64,000 nt of DNA from the NCBI GenBank assembly GCA_020439745.1, contig JAGQSC010000017.1, positions 186,001 through 250,000 on the forward strand, in the 5' to 3' direction. Both the position numbers and the translations under genes were made by a program. The stretch is from Acidobacteriota bacterium (GTDB lineage: Bacteria > Acidobacteriota > Holophagae > Acanthopleuribacterales > Acanthopleuribacteraceae). The notes under the pieces are model-generated. The model was given only the letters and a program-made list of their open reading frames with translations. It made no database searches and was not told the DNA's origin. Below are positions 22,425 to 38,841 of this stretch, piece after piece; position 1 is the stretch's first letter; every line of letters begins with the position of its first letter.

Positions 22425-24491
22425 ATGCTTGCACGAATTCAATTGTTGATCTTGATTTGTGCTGGGTTAGCCCAGGCCCAACTCGCATCATTCGAAGCCT
22501 TCGTGCACGAACAGATGAACCGTGACCGAACGCCCGGGTTGACCATAGGCTACATACACAAGGGTGATATGTGGGTAAAGGGATTCGGCTTCTCGGACCT
22601 GGAGAATCAGGTTCCGGCCAAAGAAATCTCTGCCTACCGACTTGCTTCGGTGACCAAGACCATGACAGCCGTAGCCGTGCTGAAACTGGTTGAGGCAGGA
22701 AAGATTAATCTGGATGCCGAGGTTCAAACCTATGTGCCGAGTTTTCCCCGCAAACCCTGGCCTGTCACCGTACGTCAGCTCCTGGGTCACCTGGGTGGAA
22801 TCAGTCACTACAAGAACTACGATTTGGAAGGCCATTTCAAATTTCCCATGGACACAGAAGCGTCCCTAGCTGTGTTCAAGGACTTCGATCTAGTCGCTGA
22901 GCCTGGAACGCACTATACCTATTCGAGCTATGGCTACAATCTCTTGGGTGCCGTGATTGAGGGCGCTTCAGGAGAATCTTATGGTGCGTTTCTGCGTCAT
23001 AACATCTGGTTGCCTGCCGGCATGCTGGCCACACGCATGGACAGTGCTGATGCCTTGATCCCCAACCGCGTGCGTGGTTACAGGTTGAGTGCTTCAGGGG
23101 ATTTGATCAATTCCGAGTTTGTCGATATCAGTTCACGCTTTGCAGCGGGCGGTACCCGTTCCACGGTACCTGACATGCTGCGCTTTGCCCAGTCGTTGAT
23201 GCAAGGTGATTTGCTGACTGATGCGTCCCGAACTTTGATGTGGACCAGCATGAAAACCACCAACGGTGTGTTTACCGATTATGGGATGGGGTGGTCCATC
23301 ACCGATGTGAATGGACGTTTTGCCGTGGCCCATGGTGGCGCTCAAGCGGAGACTCGCACCTACTTGATCGCCTTTCCGAATGATCAACTTGCCATTGCGG
23401 TGGCCTGCAATTTTGAAGGGGCCGATCGCATGCCTTATGTGCAGCGCTTATTCGAGACCGTAGTTGGAGAAACATGGTCGCTGCCTTTGGTGGCTGATGA
23501 GCCTAGAGACCAGTGGTTGCTGGACGCCGTGATCACGTGTTTTCGAAGGGGATTGTCGGCATTTGAGTATTTTGGGCCTCATCCACAAGACCGAGAAGCG
23601 ACACGAGAGGCATTTGCCTATTTGAATCGAGTGGCGACCACCAAAAAAGTGGAAAAGCTTCGCGAACTGGTCAATCAGGGTCGGCATCCCATAGCCAATG
23701 AGGCATTTGTCACAGTTGGCCGTACCATGGCCCAATACCTGGTTGCGGATTTGGGTGCCTCCTGGTTGGCCAAAGTCCATAGCGAAGGTCCCTTGGCCTT
23801 TTTTGTGGCGTTCCAGGAACTGATGAGACGCAATCGAGATATTCCGCGGGCGTTTCAGTTGCCAAAGCGCCTGCAAAAGACCCTCCCTGAATGGTCGGAC
23901 AGCTGGAACAAGTTGTGGACACCAGAGATCCAACATGCATGGAAACAACAACAACTGGACCTTCAGCTAAACGCCAAAGATTGGAAAGATGCGCCCATCA
24001 AACCCGATCTCTCACCGATTTTCGAAGATGAAAGCCAAAGACTGTTTCTGGCCGGTGACTCAAAAGGAGCGATCGAAAGACTGGAGCATTGTTTGGTGCT
24101 TTTCCCCAACGATGATGCCTCAAGAGTACAAGCCGCCATCGGTTATCTGGTTATGGGTGACCTGAAACGAGCGCAATCATACTTGGAACAGGCACACAAA
24201 TTAAGACCAGATGGCCACGCTGGGCCTGGACGATTGAATGGCTATGCCTACATGCTGAAGAACAGAGGGCTGGTCGAGAGTGGTTCATCATTACTGCAAC
24301 TGGCCATAGACCTGCATCCCAAAGTGGCTAATCTCTACGACTCATATGCAGAATTCCTATTGGAGACGGGACATCGAGAAGAGGCCATCGAATGGTACGA
24401 AAAGGCTTTGGAAGTGGACCCTAACTTCAAGAACGCCAGGGACATGCTCCACCAAATCAATCAGACATCGGAATCAGAAGACTCAAAATAG
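22425..24491 (+). CDS. Secreted serine beta-lactamase-like hydrolase with C-terminal TPRs
   Basis: A 688-aa exported protein (signal MLARIQLLILICAGLAQAQ). Residues about 25-345 are a class C beta-lactamase/D-alanyl-carboxypeptidase fold: nucleophile motif S75-V-T-K78, second motif Y166-S-S (Tyr conserved, Asn of the usual YxN replaced by Ser) and third motif H303-G-G. Residues about 530-685 contain tetratricopeptide repeats (AIERLEHCLVLFPNDD, AIEWYEKALEVDPNF). Family members hydrolyse esters, D-amino acid peptides or, rarely, beta-lactams; substrate is not predictable. It has its own transcription after the rplQ terminator and may be followed by the 24492 gene without a gap. Confidence 0.88.
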   Translation: MLARIQLLILICAGLAQAQLASFEAFVHEQMNRDRTPGLTIGYIHKGDMWVKGFGFSDLENQVPAKEISAYRLASVTKTMTAVAVLKLVEAGKINLDAEVQTYVPSFPRKPWPVTVRQLLGHLGGISHYKNYDLEGHFKFPMDTEASLAVFKDFDLVAEPGTHYTYSSYGYNLLGAVIEGASGESYGAFLRHNIWLPAGMLATRMDSADALIPNRVRGYRLSASGDLINSEFVDISSRFAAGGTRSTVPDMLRFAQSLMQGDLLTDASRTLMWTSMKTTNGVFTDYGMGWSITDVNGRFAVAHGGAQAETRTYLIAFPNDQLAIAVACNFEGADRMPYVQRLFETVVGETWSLPLVADEPRDQWLLDAVITCFRRGLSAFEYFGPHPQDREATREAFAYLNRVATTKKVEKLRELVNQGRHPIANEAFVTVGRTMAQYLVADLGASWLAKVHSEGPLAFFVAFQELMRRNRDIPRAFQLPKRLQKTLPEWSDSWNKLWTPEIQHAWKQQQLDLQLNAKDWKDAPIKPDLSPIFEDESQRLFLAGDSKGAIERLEHCLVLFPNDDASRVQAAIGYLVMGDLKRAQSYLEQAHKLRPDGHAGPGRLNGYAYMLKNRGLVESGSSLLQLAIDLHPKVANLYDSYAEFLLETGHREEAIEWYEKALEVDPNFKNARDMLHQINQTSESEDSK

Positions 24492-29098: not shown

Positions 29099-31219
29099 TC
29101 AGAACCGAACTTCCAGGCTGATTTGACCATCTCGGCCGCGCACAGGCGACCTTTCTTTGATGAATGAAGTATGGATCAACGCCTCTTCGTCTGTGAGGTT
29201 TGTGCCCTTAAACGTAAGTTCAATTACCGTAGTACCCACAATAAATTGTTTTCCCAGCGCTAGGTTCAACATGTCGTAACCGACGGTGGGAGATTCCAAG
29301 GGTGCGGTTTTGTTTTGACTGTCTGTTGCGATCCACTCAATTTGACCCCACATCTGTGCGCCTTCATATCTCGCGCGTGAACCCCATCGGAAGGGCGGCA
29401 TGCGTGGTAGAGAATGACCGCTTCGGTCAAATTCAGCTCGAACCGCATCGGCAAACAACTCGATCTCCAGGTGGTGGGGGTCCCTGTGGATGGCACTCCA
29501 ATCCAAATGTAGTTCTCCGCCCCAAAAAGATGCGTCCTCTTGAGTAAAAACGTATTCGTCCAATCCTTCACGGCTCCTACCGGACCTCCGTTCGTAAATG
29601 TAGCCGGAGATTTCATTGCGAAATAGGGTCAGTTCGCCTTTGAGCCGGCCCATCTGCTCCTTCATTCCCAATTCCATTCCTAGTCCTGATTCTTTGTCCA
29701 GATCAGGATTACCAACCTCAAATGCGTCGGTGGCCAGATGAGGGCCGAATGCAAATCGTTCTTCGGCGGTTGGGGGACGTTCGGACTGGGAAAGGTTGGC
29801 ACGAAGCACCAGTGGTTGATCCTGATTCATCACCAATCCCGCCGACCAAGACCACGAAGTATCGTTCTTGTCCCGATCTGTGGTCTGTATGTGCTGCATC
29901 TCTATGCGAGACCCCAACTCTACGGACCATGATGGACGCGTGAGTTGCTCGACGATGAAGAGCCCTGTCTGCATGGTTTCGCTTTGGGGCACAAATGCCT
30001 CTTCACCGATGGCTTCAAAATCGCGGAATTGCCACTGCACACCTACTGATCCTTGCCAACTGTGGCGTGGCCGATGAAAAGCTTCAGTTCTGAATTCCAC
30101 ATATTGATTGTTGAAGGTGGTGCCGATTTCTCCTTCTTCAAGCTCGACATGTTGGTAGTCAGTGGCGGCGAGTTGCAGATCCAAATGATGGATGAACCCA
30201 TCTCGGCTCAACGAACTGCGCAAATCCAAACGGCTTTGGTCCTGGTCTATCCGGATATCTTCGTCTCCGGGCAGACCGTATTCGTAATTTAGGGAAGTCA
30301 ACGCCGCACCTATATGCCATTGATCTCGTATGAATGACATGCCTGCTGTCACTTTAGTTCGCTCAGTGGCCGAATTGGCGAGTCGATCTTGGTCCAAGTC
30401 TCCTGGTAGTCTGTAGTCTTCAGTCTGACGATAGTGCCCGTTTACGTGCCAGGCAATGCTTTTCACCGAGCCGCCGCTCTCGGCGCCTAAGCTGAAGTCA
30501 TCCAAGTTGGTGCTGGTGTTTAGTCTGGTAGAGACTTGGTCTTGCAGATATTGAGGGATGCGACTGTCGATCACATTGATGACACCACCAATGGCGCTGC
30601 TACCAAATCGCAGCGTGGCTGGACCGCGGAGGATTTCGATGCGTTCAGCAGCCTCAATATCGGTCGATAATGCGTGATCTGCGCTAACGCTTGATGCATC
30701 ACCTGATTCTGCACCGCTTTCCAAAACACGGACCCGCTTGCCTGATAGTCCTCGAATGATGGGCTGGCTGGAACCCGCGCCGTAAGGTGAAGCATTCACA
30801 CCGGGCTCTGACTTCAAGGTCTCAGCCAGCGTAGGCAGTTGCTTGAGATCCAAGTGATGCGTCGACAAGACCGTCACGGCTTGAGCTAACTCGTTGGTCT
30901 TTATTCCCGGCAAATTGGCCGTAACCGTGATCTCGTTGTGAATAGTGAAATCAAAGACAACCTCAAAGGTTGCTTCAGGTTGCTGCAAATCTGCGGCTAA
31001 GCTCGATCGACCGTAACGATCCGAGCTTACGATTATTTGGTACTGCCCATAAGGCAGATCCTTGAAGGTAAATTGGCCTTTTTCGTCGGAGAGCGTTTGA
31101 AGCTTTCCCGGTGTGAGTTGAACAACGGCATTGTGGATGGTCTGACCATCCTGGGTACGTACCAAACCCTTGATTGTGCCTTGGCCCAGAATGGCCATTA
31201 GCATCAAGAAACACGTCAT
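29099..31219 (-). CDS. TonB-dependent outer-membrane receptor (ZnuD-like)
   Basis: 706 aa. Signal peptide, then a carboxypeptidase-regulatory-like beta domain (TIKGLVRTQDGQTIHNAVVQ, residues about 15-90), then the plug (about 95-230) with IIRGLSGKRVRVLESG, DASSVSADHALS and ILRGPATLRFGSSAIGGVINVID, then a 22-strand-type barrel ending in the outer-membrane C-terminal pattern ISLEVRF. The DASS-DHA...GSSAIGGVINVID wording is typical of ZnuD-like zinc or haem receptors, so metal uptake is likely but not proven. ATG at 31219 has GGAGG five bases upstream. A small Cys/His protein and a dioxygenase-like protein precede it. Confidence 0.9.
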   Translation of the reverse strand: MTCFLMLMAILGQGTIKGLVRTQDGQTIHNAVVQLTPGKLQTLSDEKGQFTFKDLPYGQYQIIVSSDRYGRSSLAADLQQPEATFEVVFDFTIHNEITVTANLPGIKTNELAQAVTVLSTHHLDLKQLPTLAETLKSEPGVNASPYGAGSSQPIIRGLSGKRVRVLESGAESGDASSVSADHALSTDIEAAERIEILRGPATLRFGSSAIGGVINVIDSRIPQYLQDQVSTRLNTSTNLDDFSLGAESGGSVKSIAWHVNGHYRQTEDYRLPGDLDQDRLANSATERTKVTAGMSFIRDQWHIGAALTSLNYEYGLPGDEDIRIDQDQSRLDLRSSLSRDGFIHHLDLQLAATDYQHVELEEGEIGTTFNNQYVEFRTEAFHRPRHSWQGSVGVQWQFRDFEAIGEEAFVPQSETMQTGLFIVEQLTRPSWSVELGSRIEMQHIQTTDRDKNDTSWSWSAGLVMNQDQPLVLRANLSQSERPPTAEERFAFGPHLATDAFEVGNPDLDKESGLGMELGMKEQMGRLKGELTLFRNEISGYIYERRSGRSREGLDEYVFTQEDASFWGGELHLDWSAIHRDPHHLEIELFADAVRAEFDRSGHSLPRMPPFRWGSRARYEGAQMWGQIEWIATDSQNKTAPLESPTVGYDMLNLALGKQFIVGTTVIELTFKGTNLTDEEALIHTSFIKERSPVRGRDGQISLEVRF

Positions 31220-31264
31220 GACATCCTCCATGTCTTTGATTCAAAAAGATACGATGAGAAGAGG

Positions 31265-31570
31265 TCAGTTTGGCGGAGCGCGGCTCTTGGCAATAAGAGA
31301 CGATTTGACGGGCTTTTGGTGTTCAGGACTCGAAAAGGGAGCTGACGAGTATTCACGATCAAACTTGCGATGTGGATTTTGAAGCATCACCACCAGGTGA
31401 CAGAGGCAAAGGCCACAATCGTCAGCAGCCGACTGCAGGGTGGTGAGGCCATCCGGTTGTATCGCTAAGGCGCTGGATTCAGACGGCTTGTGGCTGACAT
31501 GCCAGGCGTGTCCAATTCGGTGAGCCAGTGGCACCCACACCAGGGCACATATGAAGATCGCCTGTTTCAT
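31265..31570 (-). CDS. Small Cys/His-containing secreted protein, function unknown
   Basis: 101 aa with a hydrophobic start (MKQAIFICALVWVPLAHRIG) and several potential metal ligands: HRIGHAWHVSH and CGLCLCHLV. Layout and position, just upstream of a TonB receptor, recall small DUF2946-type proteins found next to copper or zinc receptor genes. That is context-based inference. The start lies six bases after the dioxygenase-like gene with no Shine-Dalgarno site, suggesting coupled translation. Confidence 0.6.
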   Translation of the reverse strand: MKQAIFICALVWVPLAHRIGHAWHVSHKPSESSALAIQPDGLTTLQSAADDCGLCLCHLVVMLQNPHRKFDREYSSAPFSSPEHQKPVKSSLIAKSRAPPN

Positions 31571-31576
31571 GGTTGT

Positions 31577-32044
31577 TTATTGTAATCGAAAATCACGTCG
31601 ACCTGTCTGGATTCCGTCGGTGTTCGTTTCGATCACCAAGATGTCGGAGAAGAATCCTTTGGATTTGGCCTGTTTGGCTTGTTCCTTCGAAACACGAGGA
31701 TCATCGGCAAAGTGGATCGTGGCACCGGCCTTTGTATGGCCCGTTGCTTTCACTTCGAAATGGACATGGGCCGCCATGTTCTCTCCGGCATAGCCACCGG
31801 GGCGAATGGTTTTGAAATGGTACCACCCCGAGCTGTCAGTCACTGCCGTGGCCTTCAATCTGGGAACGCCAGACGCATCTTCACCATAATAACCTTTGGC
31901 GTCCGTATGCCAGGCAGTTACTTCGGCATCAGCAATAGGCTGACCATCGATATTCGTAACTTGGCCTTCCAGGATTAATGCGGTTCCGGGCTCGTTCTCT
32001 GGCGCTATGGATACCTGCGTCAAGAGTGCGAATAAGAAAACCAC
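31577..32044 (-). CDS. Secreted intradiol dioxygenase-like protein
   Basis: 155 aa with a signal-like N-terminus. The body follows the intradiol ring-cleavage dioxygenase fold: GQVTNIDGQPIADAEVTAWHTDAKGYYG, DSSGWYHFKTIRPGGY and AAHVHFEV, where family enzymes use two Tyr and two His to bind Fe(III). Candidate ligands Y (GYYG or GGY) and H-V-H are present. Secreted homologues are common and often of unknown substrate. First of a possible four-gene unit with the Cys/His protein, TonB receptor and fbp. Confidence 0.75.
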   Translation of the reverse strand: MVFLFALLTQVSIAPENEPGTALILEGQVTNIDGQPIADAEVTAWHTDAKGYYGEDASGVPRLKATAVTDSSGWYHFKTIRPGGYAGENMAAHVHFEVKATGHTKAGATIHFADDPRVSKEQAKQAKSKGFFSDILVIETNTDGIQTGRRDFRLQ

Positions 32045-32131: not shown

Positions 32132-32155
32132 AAGGCGGCTCGAATGAGCCGCCTT
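32132..32155 (-). terminator. Terminator of the proline-rich peptide gene
   Basis: AAGGCGGCTC (32132-32141) and GAGCCGCCTT (32146-32155) form a perfect 10-bp stem with a four-base loop. On the minus strand it begins six bases after the peptide stop codon and is followed by TCTTATGTGTTTT. It separates the peptide gene from the dioxygenase-like gene, so the peptide has its own transcript. Confidence 0.8.
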
Positions 32156-32161
32156 GATGAC

Positions 32162-32272
32162 TTAGGCCTTTGGCGCATCCCGTGGAGGTTTGGGATCGGG
32201 TGATTCACGGGGCGGCTTTGGTGCCGGTGCATCTCTTGGTGGTTTCTGGGTCATGTAGGTTGAGCTTCCCAT
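32162..32272 (-). CDS. 36-residue proline-rich repeat peptide
   Basis: ATG at 32272 follows a strong AAAGGAGAAG ribosome binding site and opens a 36-codon frame ending in TAA. After a nine-residue leader (MGSSTYMTQ) come three nine-residue repeats: KPPRDAPAP, KPPRESPDP and KPPRDAPKA. There is no signal peptide or hydrophobic segment, and no Cys; Ser and Thr cluster in the leader and one Ser lies in repeat 2. A perfect hairpin terminator follows the stop. The site, the strict repeat and the terminator argue that this is a real gene although it is very short. I do not recognise the family. It is divergent from the glycosyltransferase at 32545. Confidence 0.75.
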   Translation of the reverse strand: MGSSTYMTQKPPRDAPAPKPPRESPDPKPPRDAPKA

Positions 32273-32544
32273 GGTTTCTTCTCCTTTGATTGAGCTTTGT
32301 AATCTTTGACTCATGCAGGCGATGTCTTATTCTTGTTCGTGGCCGTGGATTTTTCAACTCGTTTTCTTTTTGCTACCGAATTTATTTTTTATCTAATTTG
32401 CCTTTATTGACTTTTGGATGTGGAAATGCGTACTTTTGGGTACTGTTTTGTGTCGTGAGGTATCCACCCCGATATGTTGCCTGGATGCGTGTTCTTTGCA
32501 ATTATTAATCTTGAAGTTCCGATACGGATGAATGCGGCTTTGTT

Positions 32545-33696
32545 GTGACAGGCGTATTTCCTGAAGAACTCTCACGAGGAATTGGTATCGATCATATTGA
32601 TTATCAATTGCTCGATGGTTTTACCTGGGAAGTCATGGCAGATGATGATCCGGTGGATCTTTATTCCTTCGTTTTGTCGCCTCCATACATGCTGCATGGC
32701 GGTCTGCAAAAAGGGGTATTGATGACCATGGGGCCGGATTACCTTGTGCGTCAGATACCAGAAATCAAGCAGTATTTCTATTTGTTGGCAACAAGTAGGT
32801 GGTGTTCTATTCCTTGGAGCCAGGATGCAGAGGTGTTGGGATGCCTTTACGAGAATCCGGCACGTGAAAGATGGTTTCGAGACAAATACAGCGCCAGGGA
32901 CTGGCAGTTATTCGCGCCGATCCAGGAGGCGGATTGGACAAATGATACATTTTTTTGTCCTGATTCGGTCGAGAAAACCTATGACGTGGTTTGTCTATCT
33001 CGGCTCGCTTCATTTAAGAACCTGGACATTTTTGCTGCAGCCTTGCAGCACTATTGGCGACAATATGGTCAGATTAGGGTTCTCTTTCTGCCTGGTTTCG
33101 ACGGTCCCAACGCAATGGACCAAGACGAGTATGCACTGTGGCGTTTAGTCGTTGAGAGTCTGCCATCAGGTTATGTGGATACAAGGTGGTATACCGACGC
33201 TGAAGGTGTGAGGCGGGCACTCAATCAATCCAAATCCTATGTGTTGACCTCCCTTGTTGAAGGCAAGAATCGCGGACTACATGAAGCAATGTGTTGTGAT
33301 CTGCCCGTTGTGGTGTTTCGCGACTTCAATAAAGCAGCACGTGGAGGCGCATCGGCGTTTCCGGATGGAGCAGGGTTAGTCGCTCAGTTTGATCCTAGCG
33401 ATTTGGCGTCCACTTTGAAGTCCGTAGGATCTCGAACCTTTTCACCTCGACGCAGTTATCTCAATGGCTTTTCAGGGAGACGGTGGAGTGTGGCTCGTGT
33501 TTTTCAGGCGCTCGGGCAGGCCTCACTGGTAGCGGGAGACTTCCGTACATCCCCGCTCGCTCATTGCATAAGAGATCATTACCAACTGGAGCTTGAAGAC
33601 ATCATTTATGATCGAACCGACTTACCAACCTATTGGGTAGGCTTGGCTCACCACCGTGAAGGGTTATCAATCTACAAAGACCGCTGTTTTGTGTAG
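32545..33696 (+). CDS. Glycosyltransferase family 4-like protein
   Basis: 383 aa with a GT-B-type C-terminal half: YDVVCLSRLASFKNLDIFAAAL (donor-domain start, near residue 146) and SLVEGKNRGLHEAMCCDLPVVVF, the E-x7-E region that binds nucleotide sugar in GT4 enzymes. The N-terminal acceptor domain is short and unusual. The frame opens only at 32515; GTG at 32545 is the first usable start and lacks a clear ribosome binding site. It overlaps the convergent sulfotransferase-like gene by 25 bp. The acceptor is unknown. Confidence 0.8.
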   Translation: MTGVFPEELSRGIGIDHIDYQLLDGFTWEVMADDDPVDLYSFVLSPPYMLHGGLQKGVLMTMGPDYLVRQIPEIKQYFYLLATSRWCSIPWSQDAEVLGCLYENPARERWFRDKYSARDWQLFAPIQEADWTNDTFFCPDSVEKTYDVVCLSRLASFKNLDIFAAALQHYWRQYGQIRVLFLPGFDGPNAMDQDEYALWRLVVESLPSGYVDTRWYTDAEGVRRALNQSKSYVLTSLVEGKNRGLHEAMCCDLPVVVFRDFNKAARGGASAFPDGAGLVAQFDPSDLASTLKSVGSRTFSPRRSYLNGFSGRRWSVARVFQALGQASLVAGDFRTSPLAHCIRDHYQLELEDIIYDRTDLPTYWVGLAHHREGLSIYKDRCFV

Positions 33697-34754
33697 CCGA
33701 ACGATTCGGCCAGATGCCAGTCAAAATGGCAATTCATGAAATCCAGCGAAGCGCGACTTAATGCGGGTATCTGCCGCGGGTCCAATGTGGCCTGCTTAAA
33801 TTCAGATGACGTGATCGTTCCTGTTTCGTCGATTCTGCTGGTGTAAATCTTGGGTTGCGCGGCCATGGTGCATTGGGTGCGTTCTTTCAGCGCGGTGAGA
33901 ACATCAAGTGGATGTACCGCGAAATGCTCCAATTTCACAAAGAAGGCGTGTTCCAATTGTCGGTATGCCTGGTATTTGATATTCCACATATCGACGGGAT
34001 GGGCATACCGGTTGTTAAACCCGTCGTCGGCACTGTCACCAATTTCTGATTTCAAGAATTCCTCAAAGCTGCGGTCTGCGCGGAAATGGAAGGGGTTCTT
34101 GTACATAGACCACGCCCAAGTGTAGGGATGCCTGACGGTCACCAAGAATTGAACGGGACAAAATACGGATGCTGCAATTTCAGCGGGATTTGGCGCCAAA
34201 CGGTGTTTCCATCCAAGAAAAGCGTAGCTTGCGACTTGTACGTCCAGGTTGGCGGCAATGGATTTAGATAAAGCGTTTGTGCCCGTCCTGCGTTCACCGA
34301 AAATTTTTACGACCATCTGGTTGTTGGGGTGGCTCCATGCCACGTGATTAAGTAGGTGCCAGGGAGGATCGGCTTCCAAGAAAGGAGGGCCGGGACAGAA
34401 CGAGATTATGGGAATGCGTGCCTTTTGGCAGTGAACAGCAAGATCGAAAGGGTGGTTGAATACTGGAAGTTGATGGACCAGATCTGTGTGCAACTGAAAG
34501 GCATTCCCGAAGAGATGGACAGGTGTACCTCCTGCTGAACATGAGATCATGATTAGATCAGCCGTGTTTCTAACGGGCACCTGATAGAGATCCGCTCCAC
34601 CTGTACAGGCTATGAATTGGTTTCTTGGGGCATTGTGCTCATTTGGGATCCCTTGGAGATGAGCTCCGTTTCGAAACGCTGTCACGAGTCTATCGTTGCA
34701 GTGAACTTTGAATCCGTAGGGTCGAAAGCAGCGTTCAAACTCTTCTAAAATCAT
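33672..34754 (-). CDS. Sulfotransferase-like protein with unknown N-terminal domain
   Basis: 360 aa. The C-terminal 210 residues have sulfotransferase features: a P-loop-like K150-IFGERRTGTNALSKS (5'-phosphosulfate loop) and FLVTVR208HPYTWAWSMYKNP (3'-phosphate-binding Arg/Ser region). Residues 1-145 (IACTGGADLYQVPV, FDLAVHCQKARIPIISF) have an alpha/beta look that I cannot assign. PAPS-dependent sulfation is therefore likely, but the acceptor is open: glycan or peptide. Position between a glycosyltransferase and a DUF6065 gene suggests a shared pathway. Confidence 0.75.
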   Translation of the reverse strand: MILEEFERCFRPYGFKVHCNDRLVTAFRNGAHLQGIPNEHNAPRNQFIACTGGADLYQVPVRNTADLIMISCSAGGTPVHLFGNAFQLHTDLVHQLPVFNHPFDLAVHCQKARIPIISFCPGPPFLEADPPWHLLNHVAWSHPNNQMVVKIFGERRTGTNALSKSIAANLDVQVASYAFLGWKHRLAPNPAEIAASVFCPVQFLVTVRHPYTWAWSMYKNPFHFRADRSFEEFLKSEIGDSADDGFNNRYAHPVDMWNIKYQAYRQLEHAFFVKLEHFAVHPLDVLTALKERTQCTMAAQPKIYTSRIDETGTITSSEFKQATLDPRQIPALSRASLDFMNCHFDWHLAESFGYTKQRSL

Positions 34755-34811: not shown

Positions 34812-35525
34812 GTGAAATTAGTGGCCTATAAAACTCGGGGGAGCTGTACCATACGTGTTGCTCCGCTTACACGTCGTTGGCTTGACGACCAACCTCAGCG
34901 CTTTGGTTATCGTTGCCTGCCACTGACTATTGGCAACCAATACGGATGGGAGATTTTGTCGTCATGTAGCTTTGAAGTGATTTGGTCTTCGACGAGCAAC
35001 TCCATGGAAATAAAGGATATGGGTGATGGTGATTTACCCGTTGATACCCATTTTGGCCCAGGTATGCTGACTTTTTACCCCGGATACGTGTTTCGGACGG
35101 AGCCGGGATACAATCTCTACATCACGGGTCCTTCAAACCTGCCCAAAGATGGCATTTATCCATTGACTGCGGTGATGGAAACAGACTGGGCATCCACCAG
35201 TTTCTCTATGACTTGGATGGTCACAAGAAAGGACTGTGCCATTCGTTTTGACAAAGGTGAACCGTTCTGCCGCTTCTTTCCACTTCAACGGTCGTTGATT
35301 GAATCTGTGGAACCAGAACTCACGACACTGGACCGAGACCCACACACGAAAGAGAGATTTGAACAGTGGCGTGAAAATCGAAGAAGCGTACTTTCTTCTG
35401 AACATGACGTGTCGTGGGATAAGACGTATATGAAGGGCATCCATGCCGACGGACGTCCCGGAGCCCCTGATCATCAGTCCAAATTGAACTTGAAGAGTTT
35501 TCAAGTGGTCGATGAGTTGCCGTAG
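34812..35525 (+). CDS. DUF6065 family protein
   Basis: 237-aa cytoplasmic protein matching what I recall of DUF6065: RRWLDDQPQRFGYRCLPLTIGNQYGWEIL, the central THFGPGMLTFYPGYVFRTEPGYNLYITGPSN, ETDWASTSFSMTWMVTR and FDKGEPFCRFFPLQ. No catalytic role is established for the family. GTG at 34812 follows GGGGGGCGGA. The start is only 57 bp from the divergent sulfotransferase-like gene, so shared regulation is plausible. Confidence 0.8.
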   Translation: MKLVAYKTRGSCTIRVAPLTRRWLDDQPQRFGYRCLPLTIGNQYGWEILSSCSFEVIWSSTSNSMEIKDMGDGDLPVDTHFGPGMLTFYPGYVFRTEPGYNLYITGPSNLPKDGIYPLTAVMETDWASTSFSMTWMVTRKDCAIRFDKGEPFCRFFPLQRSLIESVEPELTTLDRDPHTKERFEQWRENRRSVLSSEHDVSWDKTYMKGIHADGRPGAPDHQSKLNLKSFQVVDELP

Positions 35526-35598
35526 TCAAAGGTTGGGTGATGGGACAGAAGAAACATTCCCAGCTTGCGCTTGCAATAAAAGACGATATGATCCGTTC

Positions 35599-38500
35599 AT
35601 GATTCGTGCAATGGTGCTTTTGACAATTTCGTATCTTGGATTTGCTCAGGTGCGTCAGATTCAGTTGAACCAGATCAGCACGGACCAGGGCTTGTCTCAA
35701 AGCACCGTTTATGCAGTCACGCGAGATAGCTATGGATTCTTGTGGGTAGGGACTTATGATGGTCTCAATCGGTATGACGGGCGGGAATTCAAACATTTCG
35801 CTAGGTCAAATTCATTCCTACCGGACAACCTCATTAGGTCTCTTTGGGCTGGATCGGATGGAAACCTCTGGATAGGTACTGGTTCTTTCGGATTAGTAAG
35901 GCATCGTATAGGGACAGCCGAGTTCGAGCAAGTGACAATACCTGGTCAAACCGAATCAAACACTGAAATACAATCGATCTTATCGGTTGCAGGCCATCTC
36001 GCTGTGTTGACGGACGGTTCTCTGTATTGGGTGGATGGACATCCGTATGAGGTGGATCATCAAGGTGACATCGTTGCTGTCCTCGCTTATGAATCCCATC
36101 TTTGGTTTGGTGATAGTAATGGACGACTACATATCCATCGATTTGACGCATCAGATCGATTTTTCACGTGCGCGTTGTTGGGTCTTGAGGATGGCGAGCA
36201 GGTGTCCTCGTTGGCGAACTCGGGTAGCGCCCATGCGTTGGTGGGTACGTCAAAGGGTCGATTGTTGCGTGTCAGGCGTGATGGTCAGATTATCGACAAT
36301 TACACGGAATTACTGAAAGAGCCTTCGGAAATTGAGAATCTCTTGCATGACTCCAATGGCTATGTGTGGGTAAGTCAAGCCAACATCGATGCGTTTGTTT
36401 TGGATTTGGCGTCGGCCACACGAATTGAACTTGCGGAAACCAACTATTTTGGGGAGTGGATTTATGCCATGTATGAGGATGCCCAGAATATCGTGTGGAT
36501 GGGTACTTATGGATCGGGTCTACTCAAATTTGACACAACGACAGACTCAGTCAAGTTTTACCGTGGGTTTTCCGCACCAGGTTCGGTCGACGATGTGACG
36601 GCCCTGTGCCACGTAGGTGGGCTTGATTTGGCGTTTGGGACGCACAACGGTGGTTTTTTTGTGGTGGACGAGACATGGGGGACTCCCAAACTACATCATC
36701 GCTTGGACGGTCAGATCACTGTGATTGCGCCTACAGGTTCTGGCGAGTTCATGGTTGGAACATCAAGCGGCCTGCATGTGATCAATGAGTCTGGCGCGCG
36801 GCGTCATGTCCATTCGGCGGCCAGTGCCAAGGGTGTTTCAGCCATTTGTGAATACCAGGGCGACCTTTTGGTTTCCACGAATGGCGATGGTATTTTCCGT
36901 TACAGAAACGATCAATTGGTCCATCATTACGACGCAAGTAGGGGTGAACTTCCCAGTAATCGAGTGTGGGAGTTAATTTGCGACCGTAATCAACGACTAT
37001 GGGTGGGAACGGTGGAAGGGCTTGCTGTAAAGCGGCTCGGCGACGAGTCATTTACGGTATTCAGGGCTGGCGGACACGCAAAGTCACTCCCACACAACAC
37101 GGTAGACGCCATTAGAGAGGACAACGAGGGAAATATTCTTATTGGCACCACAGGTGGGTTGGCCATATTGGCACAAAGCGATGTTGCAGAGGCCATAAAC
37201 AAACCTGAGCAAGCGTCATTTACGGTGCTGGACACCCGTGCAGGTCTGCCCAGCGATGCCATTTTTGCCGTGCTTGAGGATGAAAGTGCTGCCTATTGGA
37301 TATCCACGAGCCGGGGCATTGCTCGCTACGAGACGAATTCAGGTAGAGTGACCTGTTTAGATCGCAGCGACGGATTGCAAGGATACGAATTCAATAGTGG
37401 CTGTGCCCTCAAACTGCCTGATGGAAAACTGGTGTTTGGAGGTGTCAAAGGCATTAATGTCATCGACCCTCCGATGTTTCAATTCAAACGCGAGCCTTCG
37501 GTTGCCCCGCTCATCACACAAGCTCTTTACAATGAACGTCAAGACGCCGTTCCTATAGATGGTTTCAAGCTTGAAGCCATGGAAATTCCAGTGGGACAGG
37601 CTTTGGGCATGTTCATTGATTTTTCGTTGTTGGACCTGAGACGTCCCGATCGGTTTCAGTTCTTCTGGCGACTGGATGGATTGCATGACACATGGTTGCC
37701 ACTTTCGCAAAAACGCAGCTTTGAAATCACTTCTTTGAATTCTGGCGACTATGTCTTGCGACTAAAAACATGCTTCTCCAACGTAGACTGTTTGGAAAGC
37801 CATTTGAGTTTGCCGATACGCGTGATTCCGTCCATATGGGAACGAACTTGGATGCGTGTCCTACTCGTCGTTTTGGCTGCAGCCTTGCTCAATGGTCTGT
37901 ACTTTGTCTTACGTGCGGTGGCTCGCGCCATGGCCCACTGGCGAAGAACCATGTTCATCGGCCCTTACAAGGTGATTCAGGAGATTGGTAAGGGGGGCAT
38001 GGGCACCGTTTATAAGGCCCAAGACGTCACCAATCACGACATGGTCGCGTTAAAAGTGCTCGACCAGTTCGTGCCAGACGACACGCGAAAAAAGCGGTTC
38101 CTGCAGGAAAGTATGATTTGTGAAACACTGCAGCACCCCAATATCGTTCGTATTTTCAACAAGGGTGAACACAGTGATCGCGTGTATTTTGCCATGGAAT
38201 GTGTGGATGGCGTGACCTTGCGACAATGGATCGACAGCGAGGAAGTAAGCCCTCAGGTCGCCTTGATGATGATTGCCATTCTCAAGGACGCCTTGAACTA
38301 TATGCATGGCCAAGGTGTGGTCCATCGTGACTTCAAACCAGAGAACATCATGATCGATCGCAGTATTACGGTTGAGAAATTGCCCGTAAGCGCCAAGGGA
38401 TTGGCCATGTTGGGTAGTAGCGTTCGATTGTTGGATTTTGGCTTAGCCAAGGCCGTAGGCTACGAGTCGATTACACGAACCGGTGTGTTGGCGGGCACGG

Positions 38501-38841
38501 TTTCCTATCTGCCGCCAGAATACATATCCGGGCAAAAGGAGGTTGGACCCTATCTTGATTTCTATGCATTGGGCATCATTCTCTATGAATTGCTCACCGG
38601 TGCAGGCCCGTTCCCGGGTTCGGATTATGTGACACTCATTTACAGCATTATGAAGCGCAAACCCGACGCCGCGTGCGACGTGAATCCAGACGTACCGCAG
38701 GATGTGTCTGATTTCACCATGGCCTTGATTGAAAGAGTCCCAAATGCTCGCCTCATGAATAGCGATGAGATCGATAAATGGTTGACTGGCATGGTAGAGC
38801 GCTATGTGCTCCAACCGGAAGCCGCAGCGCCGACTCTTTGA
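35599..38841 (+). CDS. Reg_prop/Y_Y_Y periplasmic sensor fused to a Ser/Thr protein kinase
   Basis: A 1080-aa membrane receptor. Signal peptide (MIRAMVLLTISYLGFAQ), then a double beta-propeller of Reg_prop repeats (for example SYGFLWVGTYDGLNRYDG, NQRLWVGTVEGLAV) to about residue 640, a Y_Y_Y Ig-like domain (about 655-740), a membrane segment (about 754-775) and a cytoplasmic Hanks-type kinase (787-1060). The kinase has GKGGMG (797-802), K819, HRD911FKPEN916 and D946FG, so it should be active. Such sensors normally end in a histidine kinase. ATG at 35599 begins the signal peptide; upstream codons overlap the DUF6065 gene. Confidence 0.9.
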   Translation: MIRAMVLLTISYLGFAQVRQIQLNQISTDQGLSQSTVYAVTRDSYGFLWVGTYDGLNRYDGREFKHFARSNSFLPDNLIRSLWAGSDGNLWIGTGSFGLVRHRIGTAEFEQVTIPGQTESNTEIQSILSVAGHLAVLTDGSLYWVDGHPYEVDHQGDIVAVLAYESHLWFGDSNGRLHIHRFDASDRFFTCALLGLEDGEQVSSLANSGSAHALVGTSKGRLLRVRRDGQIIDNYTELLKEPSEIENLLHDSNGYVWVSQANIDAFVLDLASATRIELAETNYFGEWIYAMYEDAQNIVWMGTYGSGLLKFDTTTDSVKFYRGFSAPGSVDDVTALCHVGGLDLAFGTHNGGFFVVDETWGTPKLHHRLDGQITVIAPTGSGEFMVGTSSGLHVINESGARRHVHSAASAKGVSAICEYQGDLLVSTNGDGIFRYRNDQLVHHYDASRGELPSNRVWELICDRNQRLWVGTVEGLAVKRLGDESFTVFRAGGHAKSLPHNTVDAIREDNEGNILIGTTGGLAILAQSDVAEAINKPEQASFTVLDTRAGLPSDAIFAVLEDESAAYWISTSRGIARYETNSGRVTCLDRSDGLQGYEFNSGCALKLPDGKLVFGGVKGINVIDPPMFQFKREPSVAPLITQALYNERQDAVPIDGFKLEAMEIPVGQALGMFIDFSLLDLRRPDRFQFFWRLDGLHDTWLPLSQKRSFEITSLNSGDYVLRLKTCFSNVDCLESHLSLPIRVIPSIWERTWMRVLLVVLAAALLNGLYFVLRAVARAMAHWRRTMFIGPYKVIQEIGKGGMGTVYKAQDVTNHDMVALKVLDQFVPDDTRKKRFLQESMICETLQHPNIVRIFNKGEHSDRVYFAMECVDGVTLRQWIDSEEVSPQVALMMIAILKDALNYMHGQGVVHRDFKPENIMIDRSITVEKLPVSAKGLAMLGSSVRLLDFGLAKAVGYESITRTGVLAGTVSYLPPEYISGQKEVGPYLDFYALGIILYELLTGAGPFPGSDYVTLIYSIMKRKPDAACDVNPDVPQDVSDFTMALIERVPNARLMNSDEIDKWLTGMVERYVLQPEAAAPTL

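Follow-up and report, generated by a model that had tools for sequence, protein, structure and literature searches.

Small open reading frames (smORFs) of the kind collected in the GMSC catalogue (PMC11364881) encode fewer than 50 amino acids, have their own ribosome binding site, are missed by family-based annotation and belong to one lineage, traits that are all shared by the peptide gene described here. Unlike in that catalogue, the evidence for coding comes from codon changes among internal repeats of the gene rather than from relatives, and species-specific smORFs need not show cross-genome conservation. Another system that invites comparison is mgtL, which, in the account given by PMC5021804, is likewise a short proline-rich ORF lying ahead of a transcription-termination signal and of genes related to metal uptake. 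Unlike the Rho-dependent mgtL switch as described there, the present locus has an intrinsic hairpin and a strict repeat of Lys, Arg and acidic residues; moreover, no competing antiterminator appears in its folds, and the gene is not conserved together with the operon. Lastly, the opposite strand of genes for Gly-rich RGG/GGF tails yields KPPRE-type repeats, and our locus has a similar antisense frame, but here it is the Pro-rich strand that has the start, the ribosome binding site, and the terminator, whereas the Gly-rich frame is closed by stops. Set beside these systems, the gene looks like an unusually clean example of an ordinary kind, the orphan small protein, rather than a new kind of system.

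We favor, with a probability of about 0.6, a true small-protein gene, an orphan restricted to its lineage and equipped with a ribosome binding site and a terminator of its own, the product of which would be a cationic, disordered ligand with three binding sites. The gene is found in the window, by which we mean the whole 64,000-nucleotide stretch of DNA analyzed, and its features are collected in Table 1.

Table 1. Positions in the window of the peptide gene, its signals, and the next gene downstream
Feature	Position	Strand	Basis or remark
36-codon ORF with three KPPR(D/E)(A/S)P units	32162..32272	-	reading frame, codon and repeat tests
Shine-Dalgarno AAAGGAG	32281..32287	-	8 nt ahead of ATG 32272
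Intrinsic-terminator-like hairpin, 10 bp, 4-nt loop, tail TCTTATGTGTTTT	32132..32155	-	folding
Weak sigma-70-like promoter match TTGAAA-17-AAGAAT	32329..32357	-	not above chance
Intradiol-dioxygenase-like protein (Dioxygenase_C), next gene downstream	31577..32044	-	Pfam/NCBIfam scan

The preliminary description of this locus named no strand; the short ORF that it reported, with its strict repeat and clean stop, is real and lies on the minus strand. It reads from ATG (32272-32270) to TAA (32164-32162) and specifies MGSSTYMTQKPPRDAPAPKPPRESPDPKPPRDAPKA, a peptide that divides into a nonrepeat N-terminal part of nine residues and three nine-residue units that make up the last 27 (MGSSTYMTQ-KPPRDAPAP-KPPRESPDP-KPPRDAPKA). 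When the units are aligned (Q-KPPRDAPA / P-KPPRESPD / P-KPPRDAPK), K, P, P, R, and the third P never vary, and the swaps D/E and A/S are conservative. The ribosome binding site that had been called strong deserves the word: the ORF is intact from AAAGGAG through the 8-nt spacing and the ATG to the TAA, and AGGAG or GGAGG at a comparable spacing precedes only 8 of the 616 short ATG ORFs in the window. Starting in frame from the ATG at 32314 would give 50 amino acids, but that codon has no Shine-Dalgarno-like site, so the 36-residue start is preferred.

The claim of a perfect terminator was slightly generous, for while the 10 perfect pairs and the 4-nt loop stand, the T tail is interrupted. The hairpin (-18.7 kcal/mol) begins 6 nt past the TAA. 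Perfect stems of 9 bp or more number only three in the 64 kb, this one included, against 0 to 2 in shuffles. Several other stems in 1.25 Mb of the source genome share its style, with A-rich sequence or AAGGC on one side and GCCTT plus T-rich sequence on the other, and in this respect it looks like a standard terminator of that genome. Upstream of the gene, the sigma-70-like match of Table 1 is no better than chance. The peptide matches no Pfam or NCBIfam family, which bears out the earlier remark that ordinary annotation would miss it. Farther upstream, at 32410-32439, ACTTTTGG (CCAAAAGT as read on the minus strand) is directly repeated with 22-nt spacing and is possibly a regulator site.

The repeat is more than chance. 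In the 5.1-Mb genome, the three repeats of the peptide gene are the sole occurrences of the motif AARCCNCCNMGNGANNCNCCN, and their successive DNA copies are only 57% identical; Tandem Repeats Finder (TRF) reports no DNA array there because the synonymous sites differ between copies. Across the seven core codons, 17 of the 21 pairwise nucleotide differences fall at the third position, 4 at the first, and none at the second. Counted as codons, 14 of 18 differences between the three units are synonymous (including AGA/CGT/CGG for Arg), and only about one in 6,000 random placements of the same changes left replacements that few (about 1e-4), a value that derives from three copies only and from a feature picked before testing. 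The comparison of synonymous with nonsynonymous change that the preliminary description had called for thus favors coding when made between repeat units, and within the limit of three copies the codon changes point to selection at the protein level. Repeat similarity agrees with this, as the proline frame scores 110, the best of six, where the null averages 32; the antisense frame that has the same third positions reaches 76, and the remaining frames fall under the null.

Among 15,011 short ORFs from 1.25 Mb of the 5.1-Mb genome, the peptide ORF ranks second overall for protein repeats. It ranks first, with a score of 72 versus 46 for the next, among those with DNA copies less than 70% identical, a ranking that sets aside one plain DNA tandem repeat with 88% identical copies. 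A 47-aa ORF at L158:16966 (plus strand) has three 13-residue repeats, GRSSRRGRSSRDL; its DNA copies are 88% identical, so it may be no more than tandemly repeated DNA, or a longer gene read in another frame.

Conservation of the repeat in relatives, on which the preliminary description had let its proposal hinge, was found in neither the genus, the family, the phylum, nor the wider collections. A protein search of 61 genomes, relatives included, gave weak compositional matches only. The best of these (E 0.009) sits inside a 261-aa open frame, and short-frame matches in family members look unrelated on inspection. In 84,980 species genomes, a two-unit pattern recovered 11 loci with no short gene with a ribosome binding site among them; they are largely from Opitutae/Verrucomicrobia and mostly start-less Pro-rich open frames, and we read most of them as lying antisense to sequences for Gly-rich tails in RNA-binding proteins. 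A peptide-word search of 84,980 species genomes with the 50-aa version, in which low-complexity filtering may hide weak relatives, produced 595 pattern matches, none of them confirmed. Relaxed patterns run on 396 genomes of the phylum and on seven of the family turned up no convincing relative, other matches differing in composition, and phages, plasmids, and viral contigs held nothing convincing for the repeat. As no relative was found anywhere, the same genus included, the gene has no independent evidence from conservation. A mobile cassette was also considered and set aside, the 500-bp intergenic region having no second copy in the genome.

Downstream on the same strand follow, in order, the Dioxygenase_C-like protein, a 101-aa ORF with CGLCLCH, a TonB receptor, and fructose-1,6-bisphosphatase. 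The receptor is closest to the zinc receptor ZnuD (NF038289, E 4.6e-94, under the model's curated cut-off). In the sole other genome of the genus, G001, broad collinearity extends across about 30 kb, beginning at SecY and RpoA and reaching beyond the propeller sensors. The order of dioxygenase-like gene, CGLCLCH ORF, and ZnuD-like receptor (window 29099-32044, minus strand) is kept there, and this stretch suggests an operon for the uptake of a metal (zinc) in which the intradiol-dioxygenase-like partner is unusual. At the site of the peptide gene, the dioxygenase and glycosyltransferase genes of G001 are divergent with only about 50 bp between them, and the peptide gene is absent; it was therefore either gained in the lineage of the window or lost in G001.

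This arrangement bears on the main functional rival, an attenuator leader peptide for the ZnuD-like receptor operon. A transcript started upstream would run through the peptide into the dioxygenase and receptor genes, and translation of the proline-rich leader, slowed at Pro-Pro by a shortage of proline, prolyl-tRNA, or EF-P, would set termination at the hairpin. The order of elements is the right one, with ORF, hairpin, and, 88 nt beyond, a dioxygenase gene on the same strand; the peptide has three Pro-Pro motifs; and Salmonella mgtL is a proline-rich precedent that works in this way via Rho, as PMC5021804 discusses. The 296-nt leader also folds better than shuffles (z -3.1), with the terminator hairpin itself contributing, and unit 2 (AGCCGCC) can pair over 7 bp with the 5' arm of the hairpin (-15.8 kcal/mol). 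Yet the terminator, at -18.7, beats this alternative pairing and is folded at every ribosome position until covered, so that no antiterminator emerges. The congeneric genome has the downstream genes without the leader, though this is one comparison. Nothing in the locus scored above threshold in Rfam, and a stalling leader needs no strict repeat of K, R, and D/E beside Pro. Moreover, in E. coli without EF-P, strong pausing was seen at only 2.8% of PPX motifs (PMC4140641). We regard an attenuator as rather unlikely.

An absence of any protein gene is unlikely as well. The locus would then be a small RNA or a terminator region in which an ORF is open by chance, or the remnant of a plus-strand Gly-rich (RGG/GGF) tail read backwards. 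The plus strand does read AFGASRGGLGSGDSRGGFGAGASLGGFWVM, in the frame that has its third positions in common with the proline frame; the pattern matches in other phyla, mostly start-less Pro-rich frames, resemble the antisense of such tails; and the repeat lacks conservation. Against this, the plus frame has a TAG at both ends, a TTG as its sole internal start, no ribosome binding site, and no preceding domain, the place where an RNA-binding domain would be is occupied by the dioxygenase gene, and the family holds no good Gly-rich relative. The plus frame also fits the codons worse than the minus frame (11 versus 9 replacements over nine codons; p 0.006 versus 0.0001), and it is the minus frame that has Shine-Dalgarno, ATG, stop, and terminator in register. 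A precursor of a ribosomally synthesized modified peptide (RiPP) or a proline-rich antimicrobial peptide is very improbable. Short repeated units do follow a nine-residue N-terminal part, and the genes nearby include those for a glycosyltransferase, a DUF6065 protein, and a protein in which a sulfotransferase-like P-loop was recognized by eye. However, Pfam scans of 16 neighboring proteins (18.3 to 44 kb) found no RiPP-maturation family or other peptide-modifying enzyme, which leaves no support for the modified precursor once proposed for this locus. G001 carries both the glycosyltransferase and the DUF6065 protein without the peptide, and we rejected them as its partners on that ground. The PRP motif, a feature of apidaecin and drosocin, is missing from the peptide, as are a hydrophobic signal segment and Cys, and the net charge is only about +2.5.

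We return, then, to the small-protein gene, which is probably real and translated. The ORF would be transcribed independently, using its own ribosome binding site and its own terminator, and would give a soluble, positively charged, intrinsically disordered peptide of 36 residues. The composition (pI 9.8, GRAVY -1.6, 11 of 36 residues or 31% Pro) is cationic and very hydrophilic, and on general grounds this leads one to expect disorder with polyproline-II segments. Each KPPR(D/E)(A/S)P copy may form one such short segment with a fixed Lys-Arg-acid pattern, and the presence of three equal units suggests avid binding to a partner that is itself repeated or multimeric. From this composition, we infer that the peptide most likely acts through three sites as a ligand for a cellular partner that is anionic or binds polyproline. 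Of the roles floated earlier, a ligand for SH3-like or polyproline-II-binding domains is the only one that is reasonable, and this by composition, although nothing specific speaks for it; nor does anything specific favor a membrane- or RNA-associated protein, and the peptide has no hydrophobic segment. A bolder variant, which we hold to be quite doubtful, is a recently gained, species-specific trivalent polyproline-type microprotein, the repeat of which was amplified and then held by selection, either as a small multivalent ligand of a new kind or as a lineage-specific attenuator coupling Pro-Pro translation to the zinc-receptor operon.

The wider significance of the gene is modest. It is a clean case of a small gene overlooked by family-based annotation, and, for want of detectable relatives, small-protein searches based on conservation would also miss it. 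Applied to many genomes, the within-gene codon test could bring out other orphan repeat microproteins.

The surroundings of the gene hold several further observations. On the upstream side lie the divergent glycosyltransferase, the DUF6065 protein, and a beta-propeller sensor with a fused Ser/Thr kinase, and the defense-system search with PADLOC matched none of the neighbors. The protein with the sulfotransferase-like P-loop KIFGERRTGTNAL (33672-34754, minus strand, 360 aa) has no Pfam, NCBIfam, or PDB match and is absent at the same place in G001. The DUF6065 gene (34812-35525, plus strand) was found, among 100 relatives, in the two genus members only, and in G001 it is inverted relative to its neighbors. 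A protein that joins a beta-lactamase-fold domain to TPR repeats (22425-24491, plus strand) is encoded in the window, but not in G001, in the interval from the rpoA-region genes to the next gene that is conserved. The beta-propeller sensor (35512-38841, plus strand) is of two-component type (Reg_prop, Y_Y_Y) but ends in a Ser/Thr protein kinase rather than a histidine kinase.
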